DNA from: Paramecium tetraurelia | Lineage: Eukaryota > Ciliophora > Oligohymenophorea > Peniculida > Parameciidae | Reading direction: 5' to 3' | Length of the DNA: 64,000 nucleotides | Assembly (NCBI RefSeq): GCF_000165425.1 | Contig: NW_001799016.1 | Span: 124,001 to 188,000 of the forward strand | Made by a program: the position numbers and the translations under genes | The notes under the pieces: generated by a model | Databases searched by the model: none | Told to the model about the DNA's origin: nothing | The model's input: only the letters and a program-made list of their open reading frames with translations | Shown: in pieces, positions 2,677 to 28,811 of the stretch | Position numbering within the stretch: the first letter of the stretch is position 1 | Layout of the letters: each line of letters begins with the position of its first letter

Positions 2677-5600
2677 ATGAATAATAAAACGCTGCTTATA
2701 GTGTTATTACTAGCTTGCACTTTAGGAGGTATGAGTTGATCGTTAAATATAGCTTAATAATTCATTTAATTGGGTAGCAATTTAAAATTGCATAGTTTAA
2801 GTGAATTGCATCAATTGGAGACTAATTCCCTGGAATGTAGTCCGACATTGGGTGAAGTAAGCAAATCAATGGATACATGGTCTGAAATCTTAGAAAATCA
2901 AGACCAACTCAATGCAGATTCGCATAATCTTTAATAATTAAAGGTGGCATTGCAAGATTTTCGAGGAGACGGTTACGAAGATGTCGAACCAAGTAAATAA
3001 ATTAATTTAAATTTTAGTATTGTTGCAATTCAGAAATTCATTTTCAGATATCTTGAGTCAAATAAGCGCACACCATCTACAAATTACCCCTTATCAAAGA
3101 TGGAGAAAGGATAGTGCCATGGAATTACAAGGAGTAGTAAGTTTATTAGATACTGCTGAGAATGATAAAGAATTACAAATGTGCTGCGATAGAATAGAAT
3201 AATTGATTAATAGATTAATGTCAGAGAGAGAATAAGTGAGAAAGCAATGTTAAAAGGGACCCTAGGTAAGATTAATTTGAATATTATTAGATTACAATCA
3301 ACATTATAAATTCTAAAGCAGACCAAGTGAGAGAAGTTACAAAAGAATGTTCAGATGGTTAAGGAACTATTATAAGAATTAAACCGCTTGAAGATGATAA
3401 ACAAGTAGTCCCAGGAAAACCTGATGGTCAATAACAAGGAAATGAAGAAACTAAGAAACCTGTCCAACCTATCTAACCAATCTAACCAACATAACCAGTC
3501 CGACCAGGTCCAGCTGATAGAGTTCCAGAAGGAGATGATTAATAGGAATAAAGTGTTTCTGAACCAAGTAGTACAACAGATGAAGAGGATGATGAGGATT
3601 CCACAAATAAAAAGAAACCAGCTGACTTTACCAATCCAGATCCTGTGGTATAGAAGGAAAGAGAAAGTCAAGAACCATTGACTGAATATGGTTACGGATA
3701 TTGGGCTAAATTTTTATTGGCTTATCCTAAGTTCTTACCGAATGGAAAAGATGCTCCTTGGTATTTTGTCTCTAGATTGAGTGCAAATAAGAAAGATGAA
3801 AATATCAATATGGGAGATAGATTGTTGGCTGTTTGGTTGGGTAAAGGATATTATCATTTCACAACTTGTGATTAACCAAAGAATCAACCAAATGTTGCTC
3901 AAAATGTTAATTATCCTGAAGATTTTGATGGTGTTTGGACTTATATTTACTATTCATACAGTGTTGAGAAAAAGAGAGCTGTTGCTTTTATCAAATTTGG
4001 AAATGATGATCTTAAAAAGGTTACTCATGATGTTTTGAATCCATCAACAAAATGGGTTAGATTCACTATTGGAGGTAAAGATTAAAATAGATATCCTGGC
4101 TTCAATGGTTTAATCTAATAAATTTATTTCAGTACTAAACCAGGTGTCTTCCTTGATTCTGAAGATGATGTTATTGGTAAATTGTAAGCATAAAAGAAAC
4201 AACCAAAGGATTTCTTACCTGAATTAATTACTTATAAGGTGGTCTCAAATCCATAATAAAGAGATCCCGATACCAAAGAAATTCTTTCTATTGTTGGAAC
4301 AACAAAAAATCCAAAGTTTCCACATGAATATGCTTTCAGTGGTTGGTTCAAATGGGAAGCACCAAAATAACAATAAGATTGGCATAATATCTTCAGAGTT
4401 CAAATACAACAACCATCAACTGATAAATTCTTGGGAGATAGAACATTATCTGCCTGGGTAGGAAAACAAGATGGAGGTATCATTCATTTACCAACCTATA
4501 CATTTTCTAATTTGGAAGGTGGTGGTAATCCAAATGTGATTAGGAATATCCCACACTAAAATAGACACACTGAATGGTTCTTTGTTTATTTTGGATATTC
4601 AAGACCTTAGAAGAAGGCTGTTGCTACAATTCAATGGAAACAATCAACTGAAAAATAAGAATATGAAAACATCAGACACTTCCAAGTTCCTAAGTTCTAC
4701 ATTTATGTAGGAAAAGACAAATAATTCCCAGGATTCAATGGTAAAGTTGCATTAGTTGCTTTCAACGTTGGAGAAGGATCATTCAAACCTAGCAATGACT
4801 TTACAGGAAAAGGTGATCCCTTTAGTTTTGTGACTGGTAAAAAGAAATTGATTGGAGTTCAACCAGAAATAGACACTGAAGAAGATCCTGAAAAATAAAA
4901 GAAACCATATAAAGCAGTTGATGATGTAGAGACTGATGGTTTGACTAGACCAAGTTCAAGCGAAGAAAATAAACCAGTCATTGAAGAAAATTAAGAAGAT
5001 GAAAACGAATTAGTCGAATATGGTTATGGATTTTGGATGAGATTCTTAACTGCTTACCCTGATAGATTATTGAATGGAAAGAATGCTCCATGGTACTTTG
5101 TTTCTAGATTAACTTCAAATATGAATTACAAAAATATTGATATGGGTGACAGATTACTAGCCATTTGGTAAGGTTAAGGATATTACCATTTCACTACTTG
5201 TGATTAACCAAAGAACCAAGCCAATGTAATTCAAAATATCAATTATCCAAATGACATTGAAGGATTGTGGACATACGTTTACTATTCATACAGTTCAGAA
5301 GCTAAAAAAGCTATTGCCTTCATCAAATATGCAGATCAAGAACCAAGAACAATCTTACACTCAGTTCAACATCCCGCTGCCAAGAAAGTCAAATTCATTT
5401 TGGGTGGTATGGATAATAAATAATATCCTGGATTCAATGGTTTATTTAGTTAAGTCACATTTTCAGCTAGACCAGGAGTATTTTTGGATACAATTGAAGA
5501 CTTTTCAGATTAATTAAAAAGAACAATAATACCAAAGTAAGATTTGGATTAATTCTACAATCATGAATTAGTTTCTGATATCATTTCTAGAAAACCAAAT

Positions 5601-8600
5601 GACATTCCAGACTATGATGAAATTGGTGGTGGACAAGAAATGTTCCCACATGAATATGCCATTTCAGGATGGTTCAAATGGGAACAAACTTAATAATAGG
5701 TTTGGCACAATGTTTTCAGAGTTCAAATAAAGAAGCCATCCACTGACAGATTCTTGGGAGATAGAACATTATCTTGTTGGATTGGTACTGCTTAAGGAGG
5801 TATCTTACATTTCCCAACATACACATACACAAATATGAATGGAGCAGGTAATCCAAATATGGTCAGCAATATCCAACACAAGAATAGAATTTTCGATTGG
5901 TTCTTTGTTTACTTTGGATATTCAAAAAATTAATAAAAGGCATTTGTCGGAGTTAGATTTGCATCAGGACTTGAAACCTTAGAGTATAACAATGTCAATC
6001 ATTATTATGCACCTAAATTCTACACATTCGCTGGCAAAGACTTGCACTTCCCAGGATTGAATGGCAAATTGGCATATGTGAACTTTAACTTAGGAGATGG
6101 AACATTCAGAAAGACTCCAGATTTCAAACATCCAGATGACATCTTTGGATTACAAAAGGGTGAAATCAACATCCTCAAAAAGCCAGATTAAAAGAAAGTA
6201 CAACCAGAAGTTGATAAGGAAACTGGAGAAACTTAAATTCCAAATGCAGTATCTGATAATACACCCAAAGTTACTAAGGAATTCAAATCAGAATAACCTC
6301 TTGCTGAATATGGTTACGGATTTTGGATGAGATTCTTAACTGCTTATCCAGTCAAATTGCCGAATGGAAAGAATGCACCTTGGTATTTCATTTCAAGATT
6401 AGCCAACAGACCTAATTATGATAATATTGCTATGGGAGATAGAACTTTGGCTATTTGGTAAGGACAAGGATATTATCACTTCACCACATGCAATTTACCA
6501 GGACAAGTCAATGTAATTAAGAATGTCAATTACCCAGCTGATATTGAAGGATTGTGGACATATGTCTACTATTCATATAGTAGATAAGAGAAGAAGGCAG
6601 TTGCATTCATTAAATTTGGTGCAACAGATCCAATTGATGTTGTTCACTAAGTTACTCATCCAGATAATAATTATGTTAAATTCATTTTGGGAGGTAAAGA
6701 CAATAATAGATATCCTGCATTCAATGGTTAATTCTAATCAGTTGTTCACTCTGCTTCTCCTGGAGCCTATATTGGATCCCTTGATTAATTCAAGGCTTTC
6801 CTTGATAAACAACCAAATCCTTTAGGATCTAAAGTTCCTTTGACCACAACCCCACTAGTTGATAGTTAAATCACAAGAAATCCAGGAACTCCAGGAAATA
6901 CATAAACTGTTGAAGCTCCATTCCCTAAAGAATACGCGTTCTCAGGTTGGTACAAATGGGAATAACCAACACCCTAATAGGCATGGCACAATCTATTCAG
7001 AGTCCAAATCAGTTAGCCATCAACAGACAACAGTCTTGGTGATAGAACTTTAGCAGGATGGGTTGGAAGTGGAGCAGGAGGTATCATTCATTTGACAACA
7101 TACTCATACAAGAATATGAATGGAGCTGGTCCAAATAATCTACCATAAAATATCAATCATAAAAATAGACATTTTGAATGGTTCTTTGTTTACATGGGAT
7201 ATTCAAAGAATGATAAAGCAGCTTATGCATATGTCAAATGGAGAGATAGCGAAGATAATTTAGAATACAAAGACATCAATCACTACCTTGCTAAGAAATA
7301 TTTTGTTTTCGTTGGTAAAGATGTTCAATTCCCAGGATTCAATGGAAGAATTGCATCTACAGCCTTTAATCATGGAGAAGGATCATTTAGAAAAGGAAAT
7401 GATTTCAAACATCCAACTGATGCATTCAAATTTGATAAAGGAAGCTAGTTAATTCCAAAAGTTGATCCAACAAAACCTGTTGTAGATGATAAGACTGAAT
7501 ATGGAAGCAAATTCAATAATAATGCCCCCAACGTTGATAAAACTTTGGCATCCAACGATCTTTTGGTTGAATATGGTTATGGATTCTGGGCTAGATTCTT
7601 AACTGCATATCCAGCAAGATTAATTAATGGAAAGAATCAACCATGGTACTTTGTAGCAAGATTAACAACCAATGTCCAATATGATAACATTAGAATGGGA
7701 GATAGAGCCTTAGCTATTTGGTAAGGACAAGGATTCTACCATTATACAACATGCAATAAATAAGACGGAAATGTTAATGTGATTTAAAACATCAATTATC
7801 CAGCTGATATTGAAGGAGTTTGGACATACATCTACTATTCATACAGTGCAGAGAAGAAGAAAGCTGTGGGATTCATTAAGTATGGAAATGATGATGTCAA
7901 ATCAATCACTCATTCAATAACACATCCAGAAACCAGATAAGTTAGATTCATTTTAGGTGGTATGGATAACAATAGATATCCAGCCTTTAATGGTATCTTC
8001 ACTAAAGTCTCATATTCTCATGAGAAAGGAGCATTCATTGATAGTTTAGATGTTTTGAAAACAAGATTAGGAATTGTGCCAGATGTTGACACTCCAGCTG
8101 TTAACAAGAAGATTGTTGCAGGATAAATAGAAAGAGTTCCAACTGTTGCTCATATTGGTGAAACTGTTGGAGATGAATAAACTAAATTACCATAAGAATA
8201 TGCTTTAAGTGGATGGTTTAGATGGGATAAATTATAAGGATAGTAAGTATGGCATAATATCTTCAGAGTTACAATTAATTCACCATTCTCTGATAGATTT
8301 TTAGGAGATAGAACATTAGCTGTTTGGGTTGGTACCACCGCAGGAGGTATTTTACATCACACTACTTATACATACAATAATATGAATGGAGCAGGAAATC
8401 CTAATATTATTCAAAATATATAACACAAAGATAGACATTAAGAGTGGTTCTTTTTGTATTATGGATATTCAAAGAAAGATCAAAAAGCTTATGCTTATGT
8501 CAAATTCAAGGATAGTGAGGAATCATTAACTTTCTAGAAAATCAATCACTACTTAGCCCCTAAGTTCTTTGTTTATTTAGGCAAAGATCCTAACTTCTAA

Positions 8601-11600
8601 GGATTCAATGGTTAAATTGGATTTGTTAATTTCAACATTGGTAAAGGTAGTTTCAAAACAGGAAACGATTTCCCAGATGATAAAGATAAATTTGGATTTT
8701 TAGATGGATCTAAAGCTATTGCTAAACCCGTTGAACCACCTAAACCAGATGCAATTCCAGAAGCTGATAAATCAGTATTTGCAAGTGCTTCAAGTGCAGA
8801 TTCTGCAAAGGTTGACAAATAGACTGTTGCGGGTGATTAAAATTTAGTTGAATATGGTTATGGATATTGGTTGAGATTCTTAACAAAGTATCCAGAGTAA
8901 TTACCAAATGGAAAGAATTAACCATGGTACTTTATATCCAGATTAACTACAAATGTTCAATATGATAATATTAGAATGGGAGATAGAGCTTTGGCAATTT
9001 GGTAAGGATAAGGATACTATCATTTCACTACATGTGATTAAAAGAGTAACAATGCCAATGTGATTAAGAATGTCGATTATCCAAATGATATTGAAGGTAT
9101 TTGGACTTACATTTACTATTCATACAGTTCAAAAGAAAACAATGCAATTGCCTTTATTAAGTTTGGAGATAGTGATTTCTAATAAGTGACTCATTAAGTC
9201 GTTCATCCAGCTGCAAAATAAGTTAGATTCATCTTGGGAGGCACAGATGAAAAGAGATATCCTGCATTCAATGGTCTATTCACTAATGTTTATTTTAATG
9301 CTAGAGTTGGAGCATACATCAATTCATTGCCAAATCTCAACAAATTACTAGATACTTAAGGACCAAAACCAAGCATAAAACTAGTTGATTTGGCTACTAC
9401 TATTTTGATTGATAAGGAAAGTTCTAGAACTCCAAAGGATGAGCCTATCACAACTGAGGTGGAAGAAAAGAGGTTACCTCATCAATATGCATTCAGTGGT
9501 TGGTTTAGATGGGGAGCTATAGCATAGGAAGCTTGGCATAATATTTTCAGAGTATAACTCAAGACACCTTCTACAGACAATGTCTTGGGAGACAGAACCT
9601 TATCAGCTTGGTTGGGAACAGCAGAAGGAGGTATCATCCATCTACCTACATACACATACACTAATATGAATGGAGGTGGTAATTCCAATCTTTATAAGAA
9701 CCATTCCACATAAAGGAAGAAATACTGAATGGCATTTCCTATACTTTGGATATTCAAAGGATTAAAACAAAGCTCAAGCTTATATTAAATGGACTCAATC
9801 AGAAGATACTCTTGAATACCCCGACACCAGACATTACTTTGCATCTAAATTCTATATCTTCACAGGAAGAGATAAACATTACCCTGGTTTCAATGGAAAC
9901 ATTGCTTAAGCCAAATTCAATATTGGTGAAGGATCATTTGTTCCAGACAAGAACTTCAACTTACCAAAAGATCCATTCTCATTTGGAAGTGGAGTTAATA
10001 CCTACCATAAAGACTAACCAAAACCATAACCAGAAATAAAACCAGATACTAAAGTGCTTGATAATTCTGAAACACAGAAAGTACCAGTAGTGAACAAAGA
10101 GTTGAAGGATGACAAGGAATTAACAAGTTTATGGATATGGATTTTGGATGAGATATTTGACAGTTTATCCAGAAAGATAAATCAATGGTAAGAATTAACC
10201 ATGGTACTTTGTCTCAAGATTGACATGGAATGAAAAATATGATAACATTGCTATGGGAGACAGAACTCTGGCCATATGGTAAGGAGCAGGATATTATCAC
10301 TTCACCACATGCAACATTGCCAATGGAAATACTAATATGATCTAAAATATCAATTTCCCAACTGACATCGAAGGATTATGGACATATGTCTATTATTCAT
10401 ACAGCAGAGCCAGTAAATAAGCTGTTGCATTCATTCAATATGGTAACGATGCTCCATAAACAATTACTCATTCCACCTAACACAAAGATACTAAATATGT
10501 CAGATTTATTTTGGGAGGTAATGATGAGGGTAGATACCCAGGATTCAATGGTCAATTCACAAGTGTATCAATTGATTAAACTTTATATTGGTACATCTTG
10601 ATGAATTCAAGGCATTTGTTACAAAGATTGGAGTTCCATAAGTTGGATTGAGATAATTGACAACTGTAGGTTTGGTTGATTAAGTCAGCAGAAGTTCTGA
10701 AGCAGACATTACAAAAGAAGCCACTGTTGGAGGAGGTGATTAGAAATTCCCATCTGAGTATGCAATTAGTGGTTGGTTCAAATGGAAACCAACAGCCTAA
10801 GCATCATGGCATAACATCTTCAGAGTCTAAATTAAGAAACCATCAACTGATAACTTCTTGGGAGATAGAACATTAACAATGTGGGTTGGTACTCCTGAAG
10901 GAGGTATTCTCCATTTCCCAACTTACACATATGACAATATGGTAGGTGGAGGAAATACAAATCTCTACAAAAACATTCAACACAAAGGAAGACATACTGA
11001 ATGGTTCTATGTTTATTATGGTTACTCAAGAACAATCTCTAAAGCTTAAGTTTACGTGAAATGGGCATCATCAGATGATGCTCTTACTTATGATAATGTT
11101 AGACATTATTTGACTCCAGAATTCTATGTGTTTGTTGGCAGAGATAAATAATATCCAGGACTTAGTGGTAAGATGGGTTACGTGAAATTCAATCTTGGGG
11201 ATGGATCATTCTTAAAGGATCCAAATCTCGATCATCCTTAAGATGCTTTTGGATTCAAATCAGGAATTGATAATTTAGTTAAGAAACCTTCTGCTGCAAT
11301 TGAACCAGGCACACCAATTACTGAAGAATTAAGCAACGGCTTCGAACAAAAGACCCCAGTTATTGATAAGGCTGCACCAGCTTGAAAGAGAGCTTGAAGA
11401 ATATGGTTATGGATTTTGGTTCAGATTCTTACACAACTATCCAGTCAGATTACCAAGTGGAAAGAATTAACCATGGTATTTCGTTGTCAGATTGGCTAAT
11501 CAAGAGAAATATGATAACATTAGAATGGGAGATAGAATGTTGGCTGTTTGGTAAGGATAAGGATACTATCATTTCACTACATGCAACAAAGTAGACAACA

Positions 11601-14600
11601 ATCCAAATTACATTAAGAATATCAATTATCCAGAAGACATTGAAGGTCTATGGACATATCTCTACTATTCATATAGTGATGACAAGAACAGAGCAGTTGG
11701 TCATATCAAATATGGAAATGATGACATACAATCAATTAGACATGATGTCAATCATCCTGAAACTAAATATGTGAGATTCGTATTGGGAGGTAATGATGAG
11801 GGAAGATATCCAGGATTCAATGGTGTGTTCTCATAAATAACATTCAGCACCAAAGAAGGAGCATTTATTGATACTGCTGATCTCTTAAAAGGATTCATTA
11901 GTAAATTAACTAAGCCTTCTTAAGGATTCAATGATCTAGCCAATTACAAATTGATCGAAGATAGTTTGACAAGAACTTCAGATGATAAACCACTAACAAA
12001 GATTATAGGAAAAGAAACAGAAAGATTCCCAGCTGAATACTCATTCAGTGGATGGTTCAAGTGGTAACCACTAGCCTAATAACCATGGCATAACATTTTC
12101 AGAGTGTAACTCAAGACACCCTCTACAGACAGTGTCTTAGGTGATAGAACATTGTCAGCATGGGTTGGAACAGCTGAAGGAGGTATCATCCATTTACCAA
12201 CATACACTTATGTTAATATGAATGGTGCAGGTAATGCTAATGTTTGGAAGAATATTTAACACAAGAACAGAATCACTAGTTGGTTCTTCCTCTACTTCGG
12301 ATATTCAAAAGATTAATAATTAGCCTAAGCTTACATTAAATGGACAGATGGAGAAGATCAATTATCACATGAGAAGGTAAATCATTATTTAGCAACCTAA
12401 TTCTATGTGTTCACAGGAAGAGATGATCATTACCCAGGATTCAATGGGAAATTGGGCGAGGTTAATTTCAATATTGGTAAAGGTGCCTTCCGTAAACCAA
12501 CTGATTATTCACATGATAAGGATATCTTCGGATTCAAGAGTGGCACAGATAAATTCATTAAAAAACCAAGTGATGAATTCAAGCCTGCTGATGCTAATAA
12601 GAACATTCTTGAAAATGCTTCAAGTTAAGATAAACCAGTTGTAGATAAAGATGTTAATGCTGAAAAACCACTTGAATAGTATGGTTATGGATTTTGGTTG
12701 AGATACCTAACAAAATATCCAGATTAATTACCAAACGGAAAGAACTAACCATGGTACTTTGTATCCAGATTGACTAATCAATAGAATTATGATAATATCA
12801 GAATGGGAGATAGAGTATTGGCCATCTGGTAAGGACAAGGATATTATCACTTCACTACATGCAATTCAGCTACCAATAATCCAAATATGATTATTAATAA
12901 CAATTTCCCTGATGATATTGAAGGATTGTGGACATATATTTATTACTCATACAATGCTGAATAAAATAAAGCTGTTGGTTTCATCAAATATGGCAATACT
13001 GACTTCTAAAGAATCGTTCATGAAACTACTCATTCATTGACCAAATATTTGAGATTCATAGTTGGTGGTAATGATGCTAAGAGATACCCAGGATTCAATG
13101 GTCTATTCACTTCAGTTACATTCTCTACTGAATCAGCATTTGTCTCAGATGCTGATAAATTGAATGCTTACTTGCTCAAGAATCAAGCACCAAGTGTTGC
13201 AGTTCCATTGTAAACAACTGAATTGATTAAAGATCAAATCTCAAGAGATAAGGATGAAAAACCAAGTACTATTCAATCAATCGGAAGCAATAACAAATTC
13301 CCATTGGAATATGCATTGAGTGGCTGGTTCAGATGGAAGCCTACTGCATAAGCTCCATGGCATAATGTTTTCAGAGTCCAAATTAAGAAGACTCCATTCA
13401 CTGATAGTTGGTTAGGTGATAGAACTCTCACTTGTTGGGTTGGTACTGCTGAAGGAGGTATCTTGCATTTCCCTACATACACTTACACTAATATGAATGG
13501 TGGTGGTAATAACAACTTCTATAAGAACATTCAATACAAGAATAGAATTAATGAATGGTTCTTCATCTACTATGGTTATTCCAAAGTTGAAGCCACAGCT
13601 TAGATCTATGTCAAATGGTTTGATTCTGAAGATAGCATGTCCTATGATAAAATAAATCATTATTTGACACCAGAATTCTAAGTGTGGGTTGGTAGAGATG
13701 AAGCATATGTTGGATTAAATGGTAGAATAGCTTATGTTAATTTCAATGCAGGTGAAGGTGCTTATGTCAAAAACAGCAAATTCGATCATCCATAAGACAT
13801 CTTCAAATACAATGTTGGATAAGCTAAATTATTTGAAAAATAATAAGAAGTTAAACCAGGATAAGTTAATAAAGATTAATTACTAAGTGCAACAAGTCAA
13901 GATAAACCAGTTATTGATTAGAATGTTAAGTCAGATAATAACTTGGAAGAATATGGTTATGGTTTCTGGTTGAGATATTTAACTGCCTTCCCAGAAAGAA
14001 TGCTTGGTGGTAAGAACTAACCATGGTACTTTGTTGCTAGAATAGCCAATCAAGAGAACTATGATAATATTAGAATGGGAGATAGATTATTAGCCATTTG
14101 GTAAGGATAAGGATATTATCACTATACAACTTGCAATGCAGTTAATGAAAATGCAAATGTGATTAAAAATATAGATTATCCAGCTGATATTGAAGGTGTT
14201 TTGGACATACATCTACTATTCATACAGTGAAGCTAAATCAAGAGCTATAGGTTTCATCAAATATGGATCTGAAGATACAATCAAAGCCATCCGACATGAT
14301 GTTACTCATCCAGATACAAAATATGTCAGATTCATTCTAGGAGGTAATGATGCTAAGAGATACCCTGGTTTCAACGGTATTTTCACTTAAGTTACATTCG
14401 ATGCTGTTAAAGGAGTTTTCATTGACACAGCTGATTAATTAAAAGGATACATGAACAAATTGGAAAACCCAACAATTGGATAAGTTGATTTACAAACCTA
14501 TAGATTGGTTACAAATGAACAATACAGAGAGAAGACCAATGATCCACTCTTTAATGCAATTGGTAAAGACAATGAGAGATTCCCATTGGAATACTCAATC

Positions 14601-17600
14601 AGTGGTTGGTTCAAATGGTAATAAGCTCCATAAGATGCTTGGTAAAACATGTTCAGAGTTTCATTAAATGAGAAACCATCAGATCAATACTTAGGAGATA
14701 GAACAATGGCTGCTTGGGTTGGAACATCTGAAGGAGGTATCATTCATTTACCAACCTACACTTACGCAAACATGAATGGAGGTGGCAATGCAAATGTTTG
14801 GAAGAATATCTAACACAAAGATAGACACACCAAATGGTTCTTCGTTTATTTTGGATACTCAAAGGCTTAAGCTAAGGCATATTCATACATCAAATGGTAA
14901 GCAGATGATGACTTCTTGAATTACGATAATACAAACCATTATTATGCACCAAACTTCTAAGTGTTCTTCGGAAGAGATAAGTTCTATACAGGATGGAATG
15001 GTAAGATTGCATTTGCTCAATTCAATTTGGGTAAAGGTGCATTCAGAAGTGCTAAAGATTTCACTCATCCCAATGATGCTTTCGGTATTGGAGCTGGTAT
15101 TGATAAATTAAGAAAGCCAGACACTGGATTTAAACCAGCTGATTCAGATCCTGCAGTCAAAGAAAATGCATTCAATTAGGATAAACCAATACATGATAAG
15201 AATGCTAATTCAGAGAATCCATTTGATGAGTATGGTTATGGATTTTGGATGAGATTCTTGACAGCCTACTCCATAGAGATTAAATAATGGTAAGAATGAG
15301 GCTTGGTATTTCATTGCTAGATTGGCCAATTAAGAGAAATATGATAACATTAGAATGGGAGACAGAATGTTGGCCATGTGGTAAGGACAAGGATATTATC
15401 ATTTCACAGCATCCAACATATTAACTGGAAATCCAAATATGATTCAAAATGTTAATTATCCAGAAGATATTGAAGGATTGTGGACTTATGTTTACTATTC
15501 ATACAGTGTAGAGGAGAACAAAGCTCAAGGTTTCATTAAGTTCGGAGAGGAGAATTTCAAATAGATCACACACTAAACAACCTAACCATTGACCAAATAT
15601 TTGAGATTCATAGTTGGTGGTAATGATGATAAGAGATACCCAGGATTCAATGGTTTATTCACATCAATTACATTCTCATCTTAAATAGGAGCTTATGTTG
15701 ACAGCATTGATGCTTTGAATAAATATGTTAATGCTAATCCATATCCCAAGTTGGATACTACTCCATAGAATTATTTATTAATCAAGGATCCAATTACTAG
15801 AAAACCAGAAAACGATTTCTTTTTGAGGGAATTCGGAGAAGACAATTAAAGATTCCCAGTTGAATACTCAATCAGTGGATGGTATAAATGGGTTGAAGGA
15901 ACTCCAGCAAATCAATGGTAGAATTTATACAGAGTATTATTGAAGAAGGAGCCAACAGATACTGCAATATTGGGAGATAGAACATTGGCTGGTTGGATTG
16001 GATTTGGTAATGTTCATTAGAGTACTTACACTTATGTAAATATGAATGGAGCAGGAAATAATAATATTTGGAAATAGACAGAACATAAAGATAGACATCT
16101 GAGATGGTTCTTTGTCTACCATGGATATTCAAGAAATGATCGATTATCATATGCCTATGTATAATACAAAAATGGAGCTGAATCATTATCATGGGATAAA
16201 GTTAACCATTACTTCGTTCCAAGATTTTATGTTTATGTAGGAAAGGATGCTATAAATGGATTCAATGGTCAAATTGGAGCTATTAATTTCAACATTGGAG
16301 CTGGTTCATTCAGAAAGGGAGATGATTTCACTCACGATAAACATTTCTTTGGATTTGGTGCTCCATTCGTTTAGACTAAAGTGAAACCATTCGACATCAA
16401 GGAGAGAACAACTGATATTTTAGTAAGTGCAGCCCCAAGTTAAGAGAAACCATCATTCACAAAAGTATTGCCAGAAGATGAAGTAGCAAGTTGCGAGGAG
16501 TATGGTTATGGTTTCTGGGCAAGATACTTGACTTAATATCCAACTCCATAGAAATCAGGAATGCAAGGTGAATGGACATTTGTTTCAAGATTAACAAAGA
16601 ACTCGAAATTGTAGGATATCACTTTAGGAGATAGAACTTTGGCAATATTCTTGAATAGAAATAGTGCTTTCCACATTACAACTTACAATGCTGGTAATCC
16701 AAACTCAATTGTAAATGCAGCTGCAAGACCAGATTTCGAAGGAATTTGGATCTACATTCATTTCAGTCATAATTTAGAGAAGAAATCAAGTGTTGCCTTA
16801 TTGAAGTATGGTGATGAGAAACCAGTGAAATATTAACAAGCTGCAGCTCATGTAGCACCAGCATTCCTACAATTCTATTTGGGAGGTAAAGACTTCTATA
16901 ATTCATGGAATGGTCAGTTCAGTGATGTTATGGTTTCAGCCAGCGAGGGTATCTTCATTGAAGATGAGGCTGCATTGATTAAGCATTTGTCAGGATTCAA
17001 GATGCCAGCCTAATTCAACTATGACTTGAAGACTTTCGAAGTAATTCCAAAGGAGTAAACCTTTGATGGCAAGTAAGAAGTCAAGGAATAAATGTTTGAG
17101 GAAGACGTTGCTTTGAGACCAGAGTATGCTTGGTCAGGATGGTTCAGATGGGATAATCTTCCAGCAGGTGCCTTCTTCCTGTATGCTAGATTGAGTATAT
17201 TCTAAGGACCAACAGATTTGTCTTATTTGGGAGATAGAACATTATCAGCATGGGCAGGACCAGGTAATATGATGCAATTCTCCACATATACATATGCTAA
17301 TTTAGTTGGAGGAGGAAATGCTGATAGTTGGAATAGAATAAACTCTGGATAAGAGTTGGTAAGATGGCATTATGTTTACTTTGGATATTCTTTGATTGAG
17401 AGAGCAGCTTATTACAGAGTAGAATTTAAGGGAAGATTGGAAGAATTCACTTTCAAAGATCACAAACACTACTACCCAAATAAATTCTCATTGTAAGTTG
17501 CTAGGGACAAGTTCTACTAACCATTTGCTGGTACCGCATCCTATTTCAGATTAAATGTTGGTGAAGGTGCTTACAGAATAAGTGGGTATGATAAAGCCAA

Positions 17601-20600
17601 GAATGACATCTTTGCTTATAATCTAGGCAAATAAGCATATGTTAAACCATCTCCTACCTTCGATTTCAATAGAGACTAATAGAAGGGAGTTTCTGACTCA
17701 CCAGTTGATGGAAAGGATCCAGTATGGTCAAAGAAAATGATTGGATCAGATTTGGATGATGTTAATGAATATGGTTATTCAATGTGGTTGAGACATATGG
17801 CCCATTATCCAGTTCAATTGCCAATAGGATTATACGATAAGCCCTGGTCATTTGTTGTCAGATTAACTAAGAATCAATAACTATAAGATATTACAGTCGG
17901 AGACAGAGTCTTGGCTAATTGGTTATATAACGGCAATTACTATCACTTTACTACTTATCATCAAAATAATCCCAACTTGATTTAGAATATCAACAATCCA
18001 GATGATATTGATGGTGTTTGGTATTATTTACACTTTGCTCACAGTCTTGGTAGAAAATAATCAATAGGTTTCTTACATAATGGACAGAAATTGAATAAGG
18101 TCGTTTTTGCTGCTGAACACATTGCACCAACTTTCTTATAATTATATTTGGGAGGAGTCAATCTCAATTATCCAGCATATAATGGTCAATTTGCTAATGT
18201 ATTATTCTCAGTAGGTGATGGAATCTTCAAAAAGGATGAGGCTGAGTTCAATGCATTCTTTAATGACCTTAAGTAACCAGATCCATTCAACAGAAATCTT
18301 GTAACCAAGAACATTGTTGAAGCACCAAAAGAATTCGGAAAGGATACTGCTGTAGATGAAAAGGTTTTCACTGAATTTGCTTTGACAGGAGAATACTCAT
18401 GGTCAGGTTGGTTCAAATGGACTCCAACTGTATAATAACCATGGCATTTAATGGTGAGATTGTCAAGTCTTCAAAACTCTGCTGATTTGAAATTCTTAGG
18501 AGACAGAGTCTTGAGTGCATGGGTTGGATAAGGATATCTCCATTTCACTTGTTATAGTGCTGTCAATATCGTAGTTGCTGGATATCCAAATCAAAATTAG
18601 AATATCAATTATGAGACAGATTATACAAAATGGCATTATGTTTACTTCGGATATTCAAGACTATAAAGATTAGCACATGCTAAAGTAGAATTTAAAGACA
18701 GAGTTGCTGAAGTACAATTCAAAAAATACATTCCAATACTTACCAAACAAATTCTCACTTTGTGCAGCCAAGGATAAATTCTACGCAGCATACAGTGGTA
18801 ATATTGCACATTTAAGATTAAACGGAGGTGATGGAGCTTTTGATCCTAAATCTTATGGTGATAACAAATAAGATATCTTCGGATACAATATTGGAAAAGA
18901 TAACGTCAAAGAGAAAGAACCAGAAGTAGATCCACTTAGATCATAAGAAGTATTAGATTCAGCATGGAATCAAGATAAACCAGTTTATTAGACTGAATTC
19001 AAGAAGGAAGATCTAGTTGGTATTTAGGAATATGGTTATGGATTCTATTATAGACATTTGGAATAATATCCAGCACAAATGAGAGAGGGTAGATTGGAAC
19101 CATGGTACATGATGTCAAGATTGTCATGGAATAAGGATGAAGGAAATATTAGAATGGGAGATCGATTATTGGCTACTTGGTAAGAATAAGCAGCTATTTT
19201 GTTTGTTACCAACAATTTACCAGGAGATCCAAATATGTTAGGTAGAATTAGTGTTGCTGAAAGAGAAGGATTATGGACATTCTTATACTTCAGTTATTCA
19301 TTGGGAAGATTAATTGGCAGTAGGTATTTTGAAATTCGATAACAATGATGAAGTATTCCATATTCCAATGAAATGCAATCACGGTAAAGTTGATTATTTG
19401 AAATTCACTTTGGGATCTGCACCTCCTCATTTCTACCCAAGATTCAATGGTTAATTTGCTAACTATGCAGTCAAACTAGGACCAGGTGCATTTGTTAAAA
19501 ATTATGATGCTAAGAAGAAGTATTTACTCAATAGAATCCCACATCCTGCTGGTGATGATAATAAATTCAGATAATTCAAAGTAGTGGAAGGTTAGAAACA
19601 ATTCAAGGGAGACAGTTAAGATGAAGTTATAGTTGAAATACCAAGTGATTTCAGCAAATTTGCAACAGAATACTCAATTTCAGGATGGCTCAGGTGGGAT
19701 ACTCCAGCTCTAGGTGCTCCATGGTTCAATGTATTCAGATTAAGTTTGTATAACGCAGATTTGAATGCTGAAAACAGATTTGGTGATAGAGATTTGGCAT
19801 TGTACAAACATAATACTTACTATCAATATCACACTTATAACTATAACCCAGGACAACCGTGGACATTTGAACATGTGATTCCTCATGCCGATTAACATTT
19901 GGCATGGCACTTCTTCTATTCTGGATATTCAAGAGACAAAGCAATTCAATACCATTTTATTTCCTTCTAAGAATCTGATGTCGAGAAAATATTTGATAAA
20001 TAGAAGCATCTTATAGTCAATAAACACTATTTGTCATTTGGTAAAGATTTCAAGAAATTCTACCCATCACACAGGGGTTTCACTGGTACTGCTAGTATGG
20101 TTAATTTGAATTATGGAGATGGTGCATTCACCATGAAACCATTCACCAAGAAGAATGACTTATTCTAATTTGCTGATGGAGAGAAGAAATACAGAAAACC
20201 ATTCTCATTAGTAGAAATCTGGAGTGATAAGAATAAATAAATACCCTCAATTTCTGATAGTAATGATATAGTCTATAATGTTGAATTGACAGATGCTAAG
20301 GACAATATCAGAGGATTAGATGAATATGGTTGGGTCGCATGGGTTAGATCATCCAGAACTGAACCAAAGAACTTACCATTTAGACCCCATACTCACTCTA
20401 TTGCTAGACTTTCAACTTAAAGAGTCAACAGAAATACTCAATAACCAGGAGACAGAGTACTAGTAGCATGGTAGTATTTCCCAACTTATTATTTCGCTAC
20501 TTACACTACAGGAAATTATGATGTAGGCTAACAAACTCCATTTAAGATTGTTGATGGTTACTGGAGATTCATCTCTATGTCTTATAAGAAGGGAGAAGTA

Positions 20601-23600
20601 AAGGCCTATGTTTACTTTGATGATAAAGATATTGCTGAATTAAAATTCGATGTTAAACATGAATTAGTTAATGAGTATTTGAGATTAACATGTGGTGGAG
20701 AGACTGAAATATTCAAATATAATAACTTCAATGGTCATTTATTAAATATTGGATTAAGATTAGGTTAGGGATCCCATATACCAACTAAAGATGACCTATT
20801 GAGATTTTTGTAAGGACCATGGAAATTACCAGATTAAGTTTAAATTGACTAATCAAGAGCGAGTTTGGGCATTTTGAAGGAAAAGAGGGAGTTTAAGGCT
20901 GATGCTGAACCATTTTGGGTAACTGTCAAACCAGAAGTAGCCAGAGGAAAAGATGAATATGCAATTTCAGGATGGGCAAGATGGGTAGATCCAGCTTCAA
21001 TTTAAGCATGGCATTTACTTTATAGAGTATAGATTTTCAATAAAGATACTGAGGGATTAAGGAATGCTGATAGACCAGGAGATAGAACATTATCCTGCTG
21101 GAAGGGTCAAGGATTTTTCTATTTTGCTACATATACAGTCGATTAAGGTCATGGTGGAGCATGGAACATTGAGAGAACAAATCCATATGATGAAGTTATG
21201 CACAAGAATTGGGTTTACTTCTATTAAGGATATTCAAGATCAAAGTAGAATGTTCACATTTACCTTAAATATCCCTCCAGAGATGTTCACTTTGATGTAC
21301 CAGTCAATCACTTTGTCCCAACTCAATTTTATGTTCAATTTGGTAAAGATCAATGGAGTGGTGGATGGAATGGTTACCTTGAATCTTGGTATTTCAATAC
21401 TGGTAATGGAGCATACAAGACTGCAGATTATGATAAAGATGAATCAGATTTATTATCATTTGGATTTGGTGGAAGAACCATTCCAAAGCCAAAGAATTGG
21501 GATTCTAAAGATATGTTCTAAAACAATTGGGGACCCTCTGACCAATCACTAGGAAAGGATGTCGAAATAACAGATGATTACATTAATGGATTGACTGAAT
21601 ATGGATATGGAATGTGGACTAGATTTATTTGGAATGGAGAAAGAAAACTAGTAGACAAACCAGCTTGGATGGCATTATCTAGATTGACATACAGACAAAA
21701 CTATTAAGGAGATGCAGCTTAAATTGGAGATAGATTATTGGCTATTTGGGTAGGATCTGGTTTCTATCATTTCACTACTTCTCAACCAGGAAATGCTAAT
21801 GTGGTAAACAATATAAACTACAATAATTTATTGGATGGATCTTGGAATTACATTTACTATGGATATAAGAAATTTGATAAGGGAGGAAATGTAGTAGGAC
21901 ATGTACTCTTTGGAGGCTCAGCCGTTAGATCAACCACTTTCCCTGAAATAGTAAATCATACTCCATTATCTGACTACTTATACTTCTGTGTTGGTAGTTC
22001 AGGTGCCAAATTGAGAACAAATTATCATTCATTTAATGGACATATCTCAAATGTTGAGTTGATGTTGGGAAATGGCGCTTTCTTCTCGAACCCAGATGAT
22101 CTAAGGAAAAGATTGCCAGAAATGCCTAAATTCCCATAATTAGCACCAATCAAAGAGGTCATCTTTTAGGATTAAAGAGATATGAAGAGAGAAGTGGGTC
22201 AAGTGGCACCTGTTGAATTTACTGATAAGTTTGCTGGATAAACTGAGTATTCAGTGTCAATTTGGTTCAAATGGTCTTCGATTTCAAGAGCAACTTGGGA
22301 AAATGTTTATACTCTCTCCTACAATGAACAAAATATCAGAGGAAATCACGTAAGACCAGGAGACAGAGTGTTATCATTATTCTAATATGCTGATCACAGA
22401 CAATTCTTCAGTACTTACACTACTCCAGATGTTGATGATGCTTTCTAATAAATCTTCACAGAATGCCCAACTCCAGCTCTTGATCAAATTGCTTGGGTTT
22501 ATGCTTATTATGCATACAGTAGAAAGCTTAACACTGTTTACAGTTTCTACAAGACTAGAACCACTGAATGTGACAAGAAATTGATAGCTTTCCATAGAGT
22601 GCCAAGATATTTAGGATTATATGTTGGAAAGGATGGAATTCACACTCCTTACAATGGCAAATACCAATAAATGTATTTGATGGCTGGAAATGGTGCCTAT
22701 AGAGACAAGGATATCTTGAGTTTTGATCCATATATTGCAGGTGCATTAGGAGTCTAATCTAAACCATATAAATGGGCAGAGAAGAAGGATGATTTCGATT
22801 TGTCATTTGATGGATACCTTGTAAAAGAATTTGATCCAGAAGCAGTAGATGGACATTCAGCCTATGCAATTGGATTCTGGAGTAGATACTTAACTGCAAT
22901 TCCAAAGAGAGTCTTAGACAAACCAGCATGGGTATCTATGGCTAGATTCACAGTCAATAGAGACTATTAAGATTAATCTAAGGTTGGAGACAGAACCCTT
23001 GCATTATGGTTAGGAAAAGGATTTTATGGATTTAGAACATATAATTTGGCTACCAATACTCCAACTATTGCTTAAGATATCAAGTATGATGACAAATTAG
23101 AAGGAGAATGGAATTTCATTTATTTCTGTTTCGCCAGTTCAAAACAATAAGCTATAGGTTATGTCAAGTTCGGCAGCTCAGGAGATATCAGCAGAGTTAA
23201 CTTCCCAGAAATCACACATAAACCAATTGAAGGTTTTGGTAAATTAATTATTGGAAAAGAATTCAATTATCAAGGATTCAACGGTAAGATTTCACAATTC
23301 TAAATGCTCTTTGGTGGACAAGGTTATGCTCCTGATGTAGAGACATTAGAAACCTTAATCAAGACTACTTTCCCATAACCAGATCTCAATATTCCTGATC
23401 CTTAGGTTCTAAAAATATAAGAAGATGAAGTCTAAAAGAGAGTTGGCGATTAATCCTCAAGTCTATGAATGGCCATATCAATATCAAGAGTCTCTTGAAT
23501 ACTCTATCTTCGGATGGTTCAGATATTCTTAACCTAAATTGTAGAGAGAAAATAATGTCTTTTTGAGATTGACAAACAATGAACCAGGTTATAGAAAAGA

Positions 23601-25515
23601 AGCAGCAATCGTAGGAGATAGAACACTCTTGATCATGTACTAGATAAATGAAGTAGTCTTCTCGACATACACTCTTGGCACTATTGATGATGGTTAAGTG
23701 GCTAACATTAGAAAACCAGCTCCACTTGGAAACAACTTTGGAGTTTGGACTTACGTTTGGTTCGGATATAGTTGGTCAAAGAGGCTTGCCTCGGGTATTG
23801 TGAAATTCCCACAAGACAAGGTTATTGTTCCATATGAGAATGTCTTACACATGGTACCTAAATATTTGGCCTTTTTCGCAGGATCAGATGGATTCTTAGG
23901 TGGATGGGAAGGACCAATGAGAAAAGTAGGAGCAATCTTTGGAAAAGGTGCTTACATTGATCCAAATAAAGGAAATTATGAGAATATGTTACCTAACTTG
24001 TTGGGATTGTAACCAAAGAAAGCAGATTGGAAACCCTCCAGAGAAGAAATTATTTTTGTTCCAATCAGAGATAGACCAGGATATGATTTGACATTCAGAG
24101 ATGAAGTAGGTGGTGTTACTGAATACGGTTATGGATTATGGACAAGATGGTTGATGACAACTCCAGAAAGAATTGTTGAGAAATCTTCATTCCATCAGTT
24201 AATCAGATTGACCAACACTGAGAGATATGAAGACAATGTTGCTCTTGGAAATAGAGTGTTGGCTATTTGGGCTGGTAAAGGATATTATCATTTCACTACT
24301 TATGACAAGAAGACTAACAAGGCATCCATATCTGCCAATACAAATTACGATGACTACTTTGAAGGACATTGGAACTACATCTATTATTCATTCACTGCAT
24401 AAGACACACCTAGGGCAGTTGGATTTGTTCACTTTGGAGATGTACCAGGATAAACAGTTTCTAGAATCGAATTAATTGATATTGCTCATAATCCATTAAA
24501 TGGATATGCTCGAGTGGTGGTTGCCAATAATGAATTCGGATACCCAGGATTTAATGGTATGATTACTGGCTTAAGAATCTTCTTTGCTTAAGGATTTGTT
24601 GGTTCCAAAGAATAATTCTTGAAAGATGTCTTAGCAGTCTAACCAAAACCATAATTGACAGTTCCTGCTAGAACAGACATCAATGTTTTGAAATAAGAGA
24701 GAGTAGTCAATAAAGGTGATTCTGGTATCCCCATTAAGACCTCTTATACTCAATTTTAGGGAGTACTTGAATATGCAGTTTCCGGTTGGGTACAAACTAG
24801 AAGAGGATAAATTGATGAATTGTCAAGAATGATCTTCAGGTTGACTATCAATGATCCAGCTATTCAAAAAGATAAATCATTGCCAGGTGATAGAACACTT
24901 ACATGTTTCTTATTCAAGGATGCATTAACATTCTCTACTTATGATTACGGAGAATTAGATAACAATGAGGATGACGAAAATGATATCTAATGGCCATCCA
25001 AGATAGGAGCCAATGGAGGAGAGTGGGTCTTCTTGTACTTCGGTTACAATTCCAAAATCAGAAAAGCCTTTGCTTACACACTCTTCTTGAACAGAGAATT
25101 AGGAAATCAATATAATGATTTGAAACACTTTGTTCCTAATAAGTTCTGGTTCTACTTGGGAGGAGATGGATTCAATCAATAATTTGAAGGTACAATGTTC
25201 AATTGGAATCTCAATTTCGGTGATGGTTCCTTCACAAACAAAGGTAAATCAGCTATTACTTCATGGCCCTATGAACCTTAACAATAAGCAGCTGATCAAC
25301 TTCTCTCAGTCTTACTTGGTAATCAAGGATTGAGTTCTATCAAATTGGAAAGATCAGCCGGACCAGCATCAGGATAATTGGATGTTAAAGGAGCTAACTC
25401 AGGAGTTGTAGAAAGAACAGCTGGAGCTAAGTCAGGAGTTACAGAACAATCAGAAGGAGCAAAATCTGGTAAATCAGAGACCGCCCCTGGACCTAAATCA
25501 GGATCTTCATAATGA
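2677..25515 (+). CDS. Giant secreted protein with 34 tandem LamG/ConA-like modules
   Basis: About 7,585 residues by protein homology between repeats. A signal peptide (MNNKTLLIVLLLACTLGG), three introns (2729-2752, 2993-3017, 3266-3290) and a 300-residue helical then Pro/Asp/Glu-rich stalk precede 34 modules of about 210 residues. Type A opens EYGYGFW; type B opens EYAFSGWFKW. Both carry GDR(T)L and end with PGFNG, the F-x-G-x-I/V pattern of laminin-G/concanavalin-like folds. No membrane anchor is seen; the end is a small G-A-K-S-G-rich tail. Likely a secreted or cell-surface carbohydrate- or matrix-binding fibre (inference). Nine single-base frame changes, near 9701, 10128, 10595, 11384, 14200, 15270, 18735, 19312 and 23460, interrupt an otherwise perfectly aligned repeat array; none can be an intron. 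Eight behave as one extra base and one (10595) as a missing base. Start, introns and TGA at 25513 are clear. Confidence 0.85.
3681..25330 (+). repeat. Tandem array of 17 A-B module pairs (period about 1,275 bp)
   Basis: Module starts (first codon of the E-Y motif). Type A: 3684, 5016, 6306, 7569, 8850, 10127, 11399, 12677, 13949, 15228, 16498, 17767, 19028, 20322, 21597, 22860, 24121. Type B: 4326, 5652, 6930, 8196, 9483, 10756, 12035, 13307, 14589, 15862, 17122, 18391, 19668, 20955, 22245, 23497, 24769. Pair length stays between about 1,260 and 1,330 bp. A signature: GDR.LAIW..GYYHFTT, then DIEG.WTY.YYSYS, then F.LGG....YP.FNG. B signature: WHN.FRVQ, GDRTL..W, TYTY.NMNG.GN, EWFFVY.GYSK, F.GFNGK. 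Pairs 1-10 resemble one another closely; pairs 11-17 diverge (A opens EYGYSMW, EYGYGFYYRH, EYGWVAWVR; B opens EYSIFGWFRY, EYAVSGW), which suggests repeated duplication or conversion of the 5' pairs. Confidence 0.9.
25351..25512 (+). repeat. Degenerate G-A-K-S-G repeats at the giant protein's C-terminus
   Basis: The last 54 residues carry at least five imperfect copies of a roughly ten-residue unit: AGPASG, KGANSG, AGAKSG, EGAKSG, PGPKSG. The tail is small, polar, and free of Trp and Cys, unlike the modules. It may be a flexible tail or a linkage site; no function can be read from sequence. Confidence 0.7.
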
Positions 25516-25893: not shown

Positions 25894-27278
25894 ATGAGTC
25901 ATTCACCTAAGGCTTTTACTTGGACTTAAACTTCCTGTACTGTGAAAATGAAAAGCAATTACTAAAACCTCGTTTAAACAGTTACTCCAAATCAAGGACC
26001 TGTTGGTTTGAAGATCGATACAGAGAGAGAATTTCAACACTCTTGTGATTTAGGATGGAATTGGCACAAAAGTTGGAATATCCCAAATATTTCTGTTAAA
26101 TTGAGCCTAAAAAACGATGAATGTGCTTAATGGATAAATTGTTAGGTAAAATAAAAAGAAATCTATTTTTAGGTTGAACTCAAGGCAGTCAAAGAACTGT
26201 AAGCAGATCTATTTGAAGAAGTTGGATTAGAAGGAACAACTAATTATGAATTAGTAGATGGAAGAGCATTTTTCACAGTAATTTCCTTAAACGATTTTAG
26301 GGTGTAAAATTTAATAGTACCACTTACAATCACCAAGGCCATAAATTTTAATTGCTTTTAATTATTAAAGAAAGAGAGAACATAATTATTTCATTACAGT
26401 CACCACCTATTTTTGTTGACAGTAGAAAAAGTGCTCGTGATGAACATCGATAAATACAATCTATCTCGCCTTTTGAACCTAAATACTTAGAAAGAAGCTT
26501 CTGTAAGAAGGAGAAGTATTAGAATGACATTGTTGATGCCCCAATTGAAAATAATGAAAATGGATTATATAATTATTTAACAGCTCCAAATATCAGAAAC
26601 AAAGTAAAAATATTTATTCATAAAGATTAAACATCCACTATTTCTGGCCTTAAAGTTTTCAAGATGTTTCAACGTTTACTATATGCCCGATGCTGAAGTC
26701 GAAAATCATCTTGTTGAACTATAGAAACAACTCTTGTCCAAATCACAAATTTCCCAATATCTTTTGGTGTTTTAATCAAATAATAACAGAATTAAGAGAA
26801 AGGTATACTTTGTATATATCAATTTAGATTGAGGATTCTTTGAATTAGCTATTTGGGTAGAGTAAAATCTAAGTTGTGGAAAAGAAGCATCTTAATGAAT
26901 TCACCCACCGTAAATTAGAATTCACTGCAGAGGATTATTAAGGATCTTATAATTAATTGACCCTTTTAATGAATCAGTTTACTCTTAATTAATAATAACC
27001 TTCAGAATTTTAATCATAGATTCCAAATCAAACACAATAGTAGGCTATTGAAATTGAACCTTAATCTTAATAATAAATTAAATTGCCCTTAAATCATCTA
27101 GAAAGAAAATCCGCTTTTAAAAAATACAAAGACTTTGATAAATTGCCAACCAAAAATTTCGAAGAAGAAAAGGCAGAACAATAATAAAGAGTAGAGAAGT
27201 TAAATAATATTCGAGAAATGGAAAAATATGAAAAAATTCAAAAAATAATTAAGATAGAGGAGAATAACAAAGATTAAT

Positions 27279-27326
<48 letters not shown>

Positions 27327-27512
27327 CATATTAGTAATTGTAAATTGCATCTAATTATTATACCAACTAATATAATTGCTTTAATCCTAATGTATATAAA
27401 TTTAATTATTTAGGTTTCAATGCTCTTTTAATAAAAATTGTAAGAACAACTATTATAATTTTATATGATTTAGTAATAGTTATTGCTCCTATAAATGCCT
27501 TCTTCTGTGTGA
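25894..27512 (+). CDS. Possible DNA-binding protein with poly-Gln tail
   Basis: Encodes 499 residues with five introns (26146-26172, 26278-26300, 26604-26625, 26803-26827, 27392-27413), all GTA...AG and giving an exact reading frame. The first half holds a compact region with GWNWHKSW, then FFTGVKFNSTTYNHQGHKF, then SPPIFVDSRKSARDE. This order (F..V.F..T...H.G..F followed by SPPI.V.SRK) recalls, from memory, the core of protist CudA-type transcription factors; that assignment is tentative. The second half is low-complexity: Gln-rich, a charged Lys/Glu coiled stretch, a run of about 15 Gln all coded by TAA, and a Gln/Leu-rich end. Nuclear regulation is an inference. It sits 68 bp ahead of the EF-hand gene on the same strand. 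Confidence 0.72.
27280..27325 (+). repeat. (TAA)n microsatellite coding poly-Gln
   Basis: About 15 uninterrupted TAA triplets inside the preceding gene. In this code they give a pure Gln run. Since no TAG or CAA breaks the run, it is likely young and prone to slippage. Confidence 0.85.
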
Positions 27513-27580
27513 TATTAAATTTATTATTAAACAAATTGATATTATCGAAATTAAAAATAAATAAAATTTAATTTTATCAG

Positions 27581-28811
27581 ATGTCAGAGAGTGTTCAACA
27601 GGAACCCTAATAATAATCCTCATCATCTAAATAACCAGAAGAGTCTAATTCGGATGAAAAGATTACTAGTGCATGGGAGAAATCATAAAAGGAATTAATA
27701 AATTCACATTAAAATAAATTTGATGCATTTAAGGCTATGGCAGATTAGAGTGGAACAATAGATGAAAGTCACTTTACAATAGGAGGGGAATAGAAATCAG
27801 AAATATTTAAAAGATTTGATGCTGATCATGATGGAAAAATTAATTAACAAGAATGGAATTAGGGTTGGAATAATCTTGATGTATAAGTGTTAGAAACGTA
27901 ACATAAAGTTGCAATTGCATAACAAAAAATGTAAATTTTAGATGCTTTAGAAGCAAAAGTAGAACCTGGTTTAAACTTAAGTTAAAAAAGTTCAATTATG
28001 ATAGATAGATTTAAAAACTCATCAAATTTGGGTGATTTAAATGATTTATTCAATAAGAAATCTCCATTTTAAGACCACTAGGAATATTCAGAGAGTAGTA
28101 ATTATGACATTAGGTAAAAAGGTAGTAACAGACCTTTGGATCAATTATTATAACAATTTAAAACACCGAATAAAACGGATATTTTATTTGATTCAGGTAG
28201 TGGATAAGGATCAGGTCAATATTTAGGTAGTAATAAGCAAACCTAAAAATTTGGATTTGTTTAAGGAAGTGCTTCTCCAGCATTTAATCCCACAACATTA
28301 AAGAATGAAAATTAATACAACTCGAAAGTTCATTAACAAATGAATATTAATATTGATATTAAGGAAAAAAATAAATCTAATAAAAGAAGAGAAGAATTAG
28401 CTAGCTACATGGGTAAATTGGGTTTGGGAGGAAATGACTCAATTTCAAGACCTTCCATAAGTTCTGAGCAACCAAATTCAAGTAAAAATGAATAATTATC
28501 ATTTAGATGTTTTCGAGAGAATGAAAGTTTATGTAAGTAACATTGGATAGTAAAATTTCAAGAATTAACCATAATCTGGACTAAATGAACTTACTAATGA
28601 TAACTAATTCATTACTAGCACATTCAAATAGCAATTAAAATAATATAGAAGAGAGAGAGGTGTAGAATAAGTAGACAATCAAGCTGGCAAATTCTCAAAG
28701 CATTCCAGCTTCTTGGAGAATCCATTATTGCAGGATTAATCTTTAAAAAGTTTTCATTTAAAACTTATGCACTCTTAAGGCGCATTGAACTATAAGAATA
28801 CTAGAATTTGA
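27581..28811 (+). CDS. Gln-rich EF-hand protein
   Basis: Encodes 401 residues with one 25-nt intron (28482-28506). A single clear EF-hand lies at residues 75-95: FKRFDADHDGKINQQEW, with Asp, Asp, Asp, a central Gly and a closing Glu in the 12-residue loop, so calcium binding is expected. A second, weaker helix-loop region just upstream (FKAMADQSGTIDESHF) may be its partner. The rest is long, Gln/Ser/Asn-rich and probably disordered, with DNDLF-type short motifs absent and no membrane segment. Splicing is needed to reach the C-terminal exon (FERMKVYVSNIGQQ onward). Possibly a calcium-responsive scaffold; the partner is unknown. Confidence 0.8.

Follow-up and report, generated by a model that had tools for sequence, protein, structure and literature searches.

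What kind of protein is encoded by the giant gene that opens with an ATG at position 2677 and closes with a TGA stop at 25513-25515 of the window (the whole 64,000-nucleotide stretch of Paramecium tetraurelia contig NW_001799016.1 analysed here), and is this gene intact? The initial annotation had described a secreted protein made of LamG/ConA-like modules in strictly alternating A-B pairs. Our analysis favours, with a probability of roughly 50%, a secreted polyvalent fibre of ~870 kDa, for scaffolding or adhesion, whose divergent modules resemble laminin G-like (LG)/ConA-like domains, and it adds nine frame switches, a depletion of N-glycosylation sequons and a codon bias to what had been noted before. 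The window is Paramecium-type DNA (genetic code 6, with TAA and TAG read as Gln, introns of 24-25 nt, and a nearby gene with 17 surface antigen matches). Three introns fall within the first 614 bases of the giant gene and the last exon spans 22 kb. The protein analysed below is a read-through of 7,576 residues (~871 kDa, 28 Cys, 189 Trp), for which 1-5 bases were skipped at each frame junction; at some junctions a few adjoining codons are in the wrong frame, so that the residues there are unsure.

The modular layout held in full: 34 homologous modules of 205-230 residues (typically ~212) form 17 strict A-B pairs (Table 1; the end of the last module, B17, was placed by hand). A G[DN]R motif is present in all 34, a leave-one-out test with hidden Markov models classed 34/34 modules correctly as A or B, and a tree of the modules separates A from B along one branch (support 99/97). 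Since the A and B profiles align with an hhalign probability of 99.8% (expect value, E, 6e-29), the repeats are far beyond chance in quality, and this homology also leads us to infer that one module was first duplicated into A and B and that the pair was multiplied afterwards. The identity matrices of the A and of the B modules are strongly correlated across the 17 pairs (Mantel r 0.90, 0/5000 permutations; r 0.41, p 0.05 for pairs 1-10 and r 0.69, p 0.005 for pairs 11-17), which suggests that the A-B pair behaved as the unit of duplication. Module identities amount to 37-62% within pairs 1-10 and 20-42% within pairs 11-17, and only 146 repeated 21-mers are common to the modules. In the 26 modules free of frame switches, seven positions never vary: Tyr5, Trp10, Gly47, Arg49, Thr64, Trp88 and Gly145. 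A higher-order repeat of two pairs is not claimed, as the data show only a weak excess at lag 2 (A, p 0.054; B, p 0.19); some lag-2 partners do pair in the tree (A7-A9, A8-A10, B5-B7 and B6-B8). By eye, an SQDKPV.DK-like motif can be recognised in several B-to-A linkers between 3675 and 25434, and DDKP/DEKP, which resembles it, in some A-to-B linkers; each linker could thus be a homologous first strand belonging to the module that follows.

Structure prediction of an A and a B module gave the beta-sandwich that the initial annotation had expected. Using alignments composed solely of the window's own modules, AlphaFold2 modelled the pair A7-B7 (16 alignment rows) and A7 alone (12 rows) with the same confidence (predicted local distance difference test 84.4 and predicted template modelling score 0.80 in both), and the pair is nearly all beta. 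A Foldseek search of the PDB with the pair returned laminin alpha-2 LG4-5 and neurexin chains as the eight best matches (E 6.2e-9 to 3.9e-7). With the single A module the best match was C-reactive protein (E 1.6e-5, template modelling (TM) score 0.52/0.54), followed at lower rank by neurexin LNS domains (query TM 0.40-0.45); the best single-module PDB matches reach TM 0.52-0.56, consistent with a pentraxin-like jelly roll, and viral ConA/LamG-like proteins match the fold too. Together, the two models and the PDB matches indicate that the modules have an LG-type beta-sandwich fold and could plausibly work like an LG domain. A flexible B-to-A linker is not claimed: model confidence is low there, in a model from which the next A module is absent.

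LG domains have a C-terminal intradomain disulfide, and such a bond is impossible in 32 of the 34 modules because these have fewer than two Cys (14 have none; only B12 and B15 have two). A single Cys (TTC, module position 65) lies at the same place in A1-A9 (3675-14579), where no second Cys is found; it could serve to bond one chain or module to another. Profile scans of single modules covered the 26 switch-free members (12 A and 14 B), leaving out the eight with a frame switch. In the Pfam scan three stray families appeared, each in one of the 12 A modules (best E 0.014; Tudor_3 0.04), and none in the 14 B modules; NCBIfam gave one stray match (E 0.02) among 16 rows. On long segments, DUF4882, Rap1_C, Herpes_TK_C and others stayed below the Pfam cut-off and Tudor_3 came just above it (27.4 versus 25.8 bits, over 25 residues). 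We take these weak matches to be chance sums over the repeats, since single modules yield only strays. No relatives were found among PDB sequences, in viral contigs (50 stretches matching the A pattern, 82 the B pattern), in genome contigs (A 20, B 23) or, by tblastn with one B module, in plasmids. The DNA collections searched were viral, prokaryotic and plasmid, with phage and E. coli collections left out, and are uninformative on other ciliates. The literature listings, which give the beginnings of abstracts, contained no paper in which we recognised a Paramecium protein of this kind.

A signal peptide (MNNKTLLIVLLLACTLGA) begins at the ATG and is interrupted by a 24-nt intron, a length typical of Paramecium. 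Past residue 30, mean hydropathy over 19 residues peaks at 1.09 and the C-terminal tail is hydrophilic; hence, by hydropathy of the read-through protein and inspection of its tail, no membrane anchor or glycosylphosphatidylinositol (GPI) signal is seen. Both secretion and the lack of an anchor had been proposed before and are supported here, the former being strengthened by the sequon depletion described next. In the tail, a 33-nt short repeat at 25388-25512 encodes GAKSG-like hydrophilic sequence. The five-Cys stretch of the N-terminal stalk has no family above the Pfam cut-off, and the stalk yields only matches below it (E 0.06 and 0.14).

The mature protein, with 524 Asn and 814 Ser/Thr, contains two N-X-S/T sequons (X not Pro) where 53.9 are expected (standard deviation 6.6; 0/1000 shuffles as low), and the reversed motif occurs 55 times. 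Two residues after Asn, over the whole read-through, Ser occurs twice where 27.4 would be expected, Thr three times (29.2 expected) and Cys never (1.9), while the other 17 residues range from 0.5 to 2 times expectation, with Asn (71 versus 36.5), Trp (7 versus 13.1) and Met (3 versus 5.9) at the extremes. The five remaining NxS/NxT comprise one in the signal peptide, two NPS/NPT, which are not acceptor sites, and the two sequons of the mature protein, one in the linker part of B7 and one in A15 that is followed by Pro. Among 984 residue pairs (distances 1-4, expectation at least 15), depletion is greatest for NxT and NxS. Shuffling within alignment columns gave the same result (A, 1 observed versus 12.2; B, 1 versus 16.1; 0/1000 each), and among 325 gap-2 pairs in that test NxT ranked first, KxK second and NxS third.

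The depletion extends along the chain of modules. Module cores hold 1 sequon where 41.6 are expected (0 versus 25.9 in pairs 1-10; 1 versus 15.3 in pairs 11-17), and the linker parts, meaning everything after module residue 160 and including some sequence modelled as strand, hold 1 versus 9.3 (1/2000 shuffles as low); the stalk has 0 versus 1.6, a stretch too short to tell. No depletion is seen in five other frames of the window: the surface antigen open reading frame (ORF) has 26 versus 31.2, the VPS13-like ORF 22 versus 22.4, the kinase-HEAT gene 8 versus 6.6, the E1 gene 4 versus 6.4 and the EF-hand ORF 9 versus 6.7. We read the depletion as an independent sign that the protein enters the endoplasmic reticulum (ER) and that N-glycans would harm it. 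The excerpted text of PMC5562741 describes a loss of sequons at buried sites, their scarcity at interfaces and a gain at exposed sites; in the giant protein the linker parts are depleted as well.

Codon choice is stronger in the giant gene than in four neighbouring genes. The Gly codon GGG makes up 3/600 versus 31/298, the Arg codon AGA 273/291 versus 135/181 and the Pro codon CCA 284/378 versus 113/218, with smaller differences for Leu CTG and Gln CAG (p 0.014 each). The effective number of codons is 36.5-38.4 in three segments of the giant gene and 39.3-41.6 in five neighbouring frames. Such a bias would fit an abundant product.

Whether the gene is intact is a separate matter. The initial annotation gave a length of about 7,600 residues, but no single open frame encodes these, as the last exon contains nine frame switches that no intron explains (near 9.70, 10.13, 10.59, 11.38, 14.20, 15.26, 18.72, 19.30 and 23.43 kb). 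When one-base changes were scored against the module profiles, the best fit was one surplus base at 8/9; the exception lies in A6, where one missing base (345.0 bits) and two surplus bases (347.4 bits) fit about equally. Candidate 28-nt introns at 18685 and 19293 (241.8 and 193.5 bits) were rejected because they fall 40 and 60 bits short of one surplus base at the same sites (281.6 and 253.4 bits). The switches are probably assembly errors, possibly a recent lesion. We consider it likely, as part of our explanation of the locus, that assembly or base-calling errors created them in an intact gene, since a sequencing method would produce the one-sided pattern more readily than drift would; yet the same gene-model run modelled every other gene of the window without a switch, and with so few repeated 21-mers ambiguous mapping is a weak excuse. 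That confinement to the giant gene counts in favour of a decaying pseudogene, with the switches marking lost function: all nine fall here and none in the 21.4 kb of four neighbouring frames, a chance of 0.002 that is biased and post hoc, those frames having been picked for being open. Such decay is nevertheless improbable, as AGA remains the main Arg codon in 10/10 segments, sequons stay absent, and none of 7,396 codons is TGA, though 416 are one transition away from it. The lack of TGA makes only old decay unlikely; because a load of 50 random substitutions would still, with probability 0.36, have produced none, it is compatible with a recent loss. Codon bias in every segment and sequon depletion are the stronger signs of function. 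Programmed +1 frameshifting, by which translation itself would join the frames, agrees with the shared direction of at least 8/9 switches, but we hold it very improbable: inspection by eye found no common slip motif at the switch sites, and nine events per protein would presumably leave little product.

How might such a protein work? The part of our explanation that the sequence or the models show comprises the signal peptide, the modules and their alternation, the fold, the lack of an anchor, the scarcity of N-glycan sites and the codon bias. The protein would pass through the ER and be kept free of N-glycans, presumably because packing, or the binding of partners (glycans or glycoproteins), takes up almost its entire surface. 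Made in quantity, it could serve as extracellular or granule-lumen material, in which many weak LG-type contacts would sum to strong binding or the chains would pack side by side. As for where it resides, extrusome (trichocyst) cargo or sheath is a tentative first guess, and the cell coat a more doubtful second. Tetrahymena, of the same phylum, offers a parallel that supports the first guess short of proof, in that the LamG protein Mdl1p sits at the tip of its mucocysts (PMC9159632, in excerpt). Gene expression following exocytosis has been studied in an experiment with 176 annotated trichocyst matrix protein genes (PMC3091696). Of the sites suggested by the initial annotation (surface coat, trichocyst tip and cyst wall), the last is improbable, since cyst formation is not known from Paramecium. 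A bolder version, to which we give still less credence, is that a 34-site lectin rod erased its own N-glycan sites to avoid binding itself in the secretory pathway and is a glue released on demand.

Several observations weigh against a secreted LG/ConA-like scaffold. The query TM of the eight laminin and neurexin matches to the pair is only 0.22-0.27, so that the domain fold is matched and not the geometry of the pair. Legume lectins, ERGIC-53, VIP36, a galectin and other ConA-like folds match as well, making LG the best but not the sole fold match of the models. By sequence the modules find no place among the LG families: 0/26 switch-free modules match a Pfam LamG family (E up to 1), and an hhalign comparison with six of a phage's nine LamG_3 matches gave probabilities of 0.8% and 0.3%. 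The jelly roll foreseen by the initial annotation is thus upheld by AlphaFold2 and Foldseek and finds no counterpart in a LamG sequence profile. The codon bias may stem from length or accuracy instead of abundance, and full-length translation requires the nine switches to be errors. In addition, Mdl1p of Tetrahymena itself appears N-glycosylated in a PNGase F test, and its authors think that mucocyst proteins are glycosylated (PMC9159632, in excerpt); sequon depletion is therefore no known mark of extrusome cargo.

Two other accounts of the same data compete with this scaffold, and we regard each as possible but doubtful. The protein could be a plain cell-coat component, a constitutively secreted, partner-held and non-anchored counterpart of the surface antigens; it is secreted, huge and without a visible anchor, and the window also contains a surface antigen gene. 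But that antigen is not depleted of sequons, so that surface location alone needs no depletion, and the tail of the giant protein shows nothing able to hold it to a membrane. Alternatively, the depletion could be a folding constraint only, beta-sandwich surfaces being intolerant of N-glycans with no binding or packing function involved. The near-absence of sequons from module cores agrees with this, whereas the depletion of the linker parts does not, although some of that sequence is modelled as strand; moreover, exposed regions are reported to be under positive selection (PMC5562741, in excerpt).

Table 1. Positions of the parts of the giant gene in the window
Feature	Position	Strand	Remarks
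Exon 1, signal peptide MNNKTLLIVLLLACTLG...	2677-2728	+	sole strongly hydrophobic segment of the protein
Intron 1, 24 nt, GTATG...TAG	2729-2752	+	joins frames
N-terminal stalk	2753-3674	+	five-Cys stretch, then Pro/Gln/acid-rich stretch
Introns inside the stalk, 25 nt each	2993-3017, 3266-3290	+	
Pair 1 (A1-B1)	3675-5006	+	no frame switch
Pair 2 (A2-B2)	5007-6296	+	no frame switch
Pair 3 (A3-B3)	6297-7559	+	no frame switch
Pair 4 (A4-B4)	7560-8840	+	no frame switch
Pair 5 (A5-B5)	8841-10116	+	frame switch in B5
Pair 6 (A6-B6)	10117-11389	+	frame switches at the start, in A6 (ambiguous) and at the end
Pair 7 (A7-B7)	11390-12667	+	no frame switch; modelled with AlphaFold2; sequon in the linker part of B7
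Pair 8 (A8-B8)	12668-13939	+	no frame switch
Pair 9 (A9-B9)	13940-15218	+	frame switch in A9
Pair 10 (A10-B10)	15219-16488	+	frame switch in A10
Pair 11 (A11-B11)	16489-17757	+	no frame switch
Pair 12 (A12-B12)	17758-19018	+	frame switch in B12
Pair 13 (A13-B13)	19019-20312	+	frame switch in A13
Pair 14 (A14-B14)	20313-21587	+	no frame switch
Pair 15 (A15-B15)	21588-22850	+	no frame switch; sequon in A15, then Pro
Pair 16 (A16-B16)	22851-24111	+	frame switch close to the end of A16
Pair 17 (A17-B17)	24112-25434	+	no frame switch
Hydrophilic GAKSG-like tail and TGA stop	25435-25515	+	

Around the giant gene, an ORF upstream (113-628, + strand) matches an anticodon-binding domain (PF09793) and the ORF immediately downstream (26690-28585, +) has an EF-hand match. 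An ORF of 3,169 residues (33300-42806, +), open across 9.5 kb, contains a VPS13 adaptor-binding domain. On the other strand, 43224-46627 (-) combines a protein kinase domain and HEAT-like repeats in one gene that a short intron likely splits, the 2,299-residue ORF at 49488-56384 (-) has 17 stretches matching PF01508, the Paramecium surface antigen domain, and 58434-61281 (-) encodes a ubiquitin-activating enzyme E1.

The giant protein would, to our knowledge, rank among the longest known chains built from a single lectin-like fold in any organism. For ciliate biology it is a candidate coat or extrusome material that comes with a prediction, namely that it has no N-glycans. If the idea of a self-avoiding lectin rod were true, a sugar-free surface would be a condition of function and the protein a polyvalent ciliate glue. 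It would also offer a clean case of selection against N-glycosylation that spans an entire giant secreted protein, in contrast to the published rule, in the excerpt of PMC5562741, by which sequons are removed at buried and gained at exposed sites.

Among known systems, laminin alpha-2 LG4-5 and the neurexin LNS domains share the beta-sandwich fold by Foldseek and also occur in tandem; the giant protein differs from them in having no profile match, no conserved disulfide and 34 modules after a stalk with no other domain recognised. C-reactive protein, the best single-domain fold match, is a pentraxin, and pentraxins are free ring subunits, unlike the tandem chain seen here; HxCx[ST]Wx[ST], which we take to be the pentraxin signature, has 0 matches in the read-through protein. 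The surface antigens of Paramecium are likewise large, repetitive and secreted, but they have PF01508 repeats and no sequon depletion, and they carry a C-terminal hydrophobic GPI signal; PF01508 gave no match in five scanned segments of the giant protein, whose hydrophilic tail contains no such signal. Three further systems are likened by description, from excerpted text. The alveolate Plasmodium has LAP2/4 and LAP6 with two LAMG domains each, which carry several other kinds of domain and are reported absent from ciliates (PMC11285972), and the resting cysts of the ciliate Colpoda contain abundant LamG proteins (PMC11237667). Mdl1p, with 346 residues and one LamG domain and thought to be transmembrane, is a far smaller protein, but like the giant protein it combines a ciliate host, the secretory pathway and a LamG-like domain (PMC9159632).

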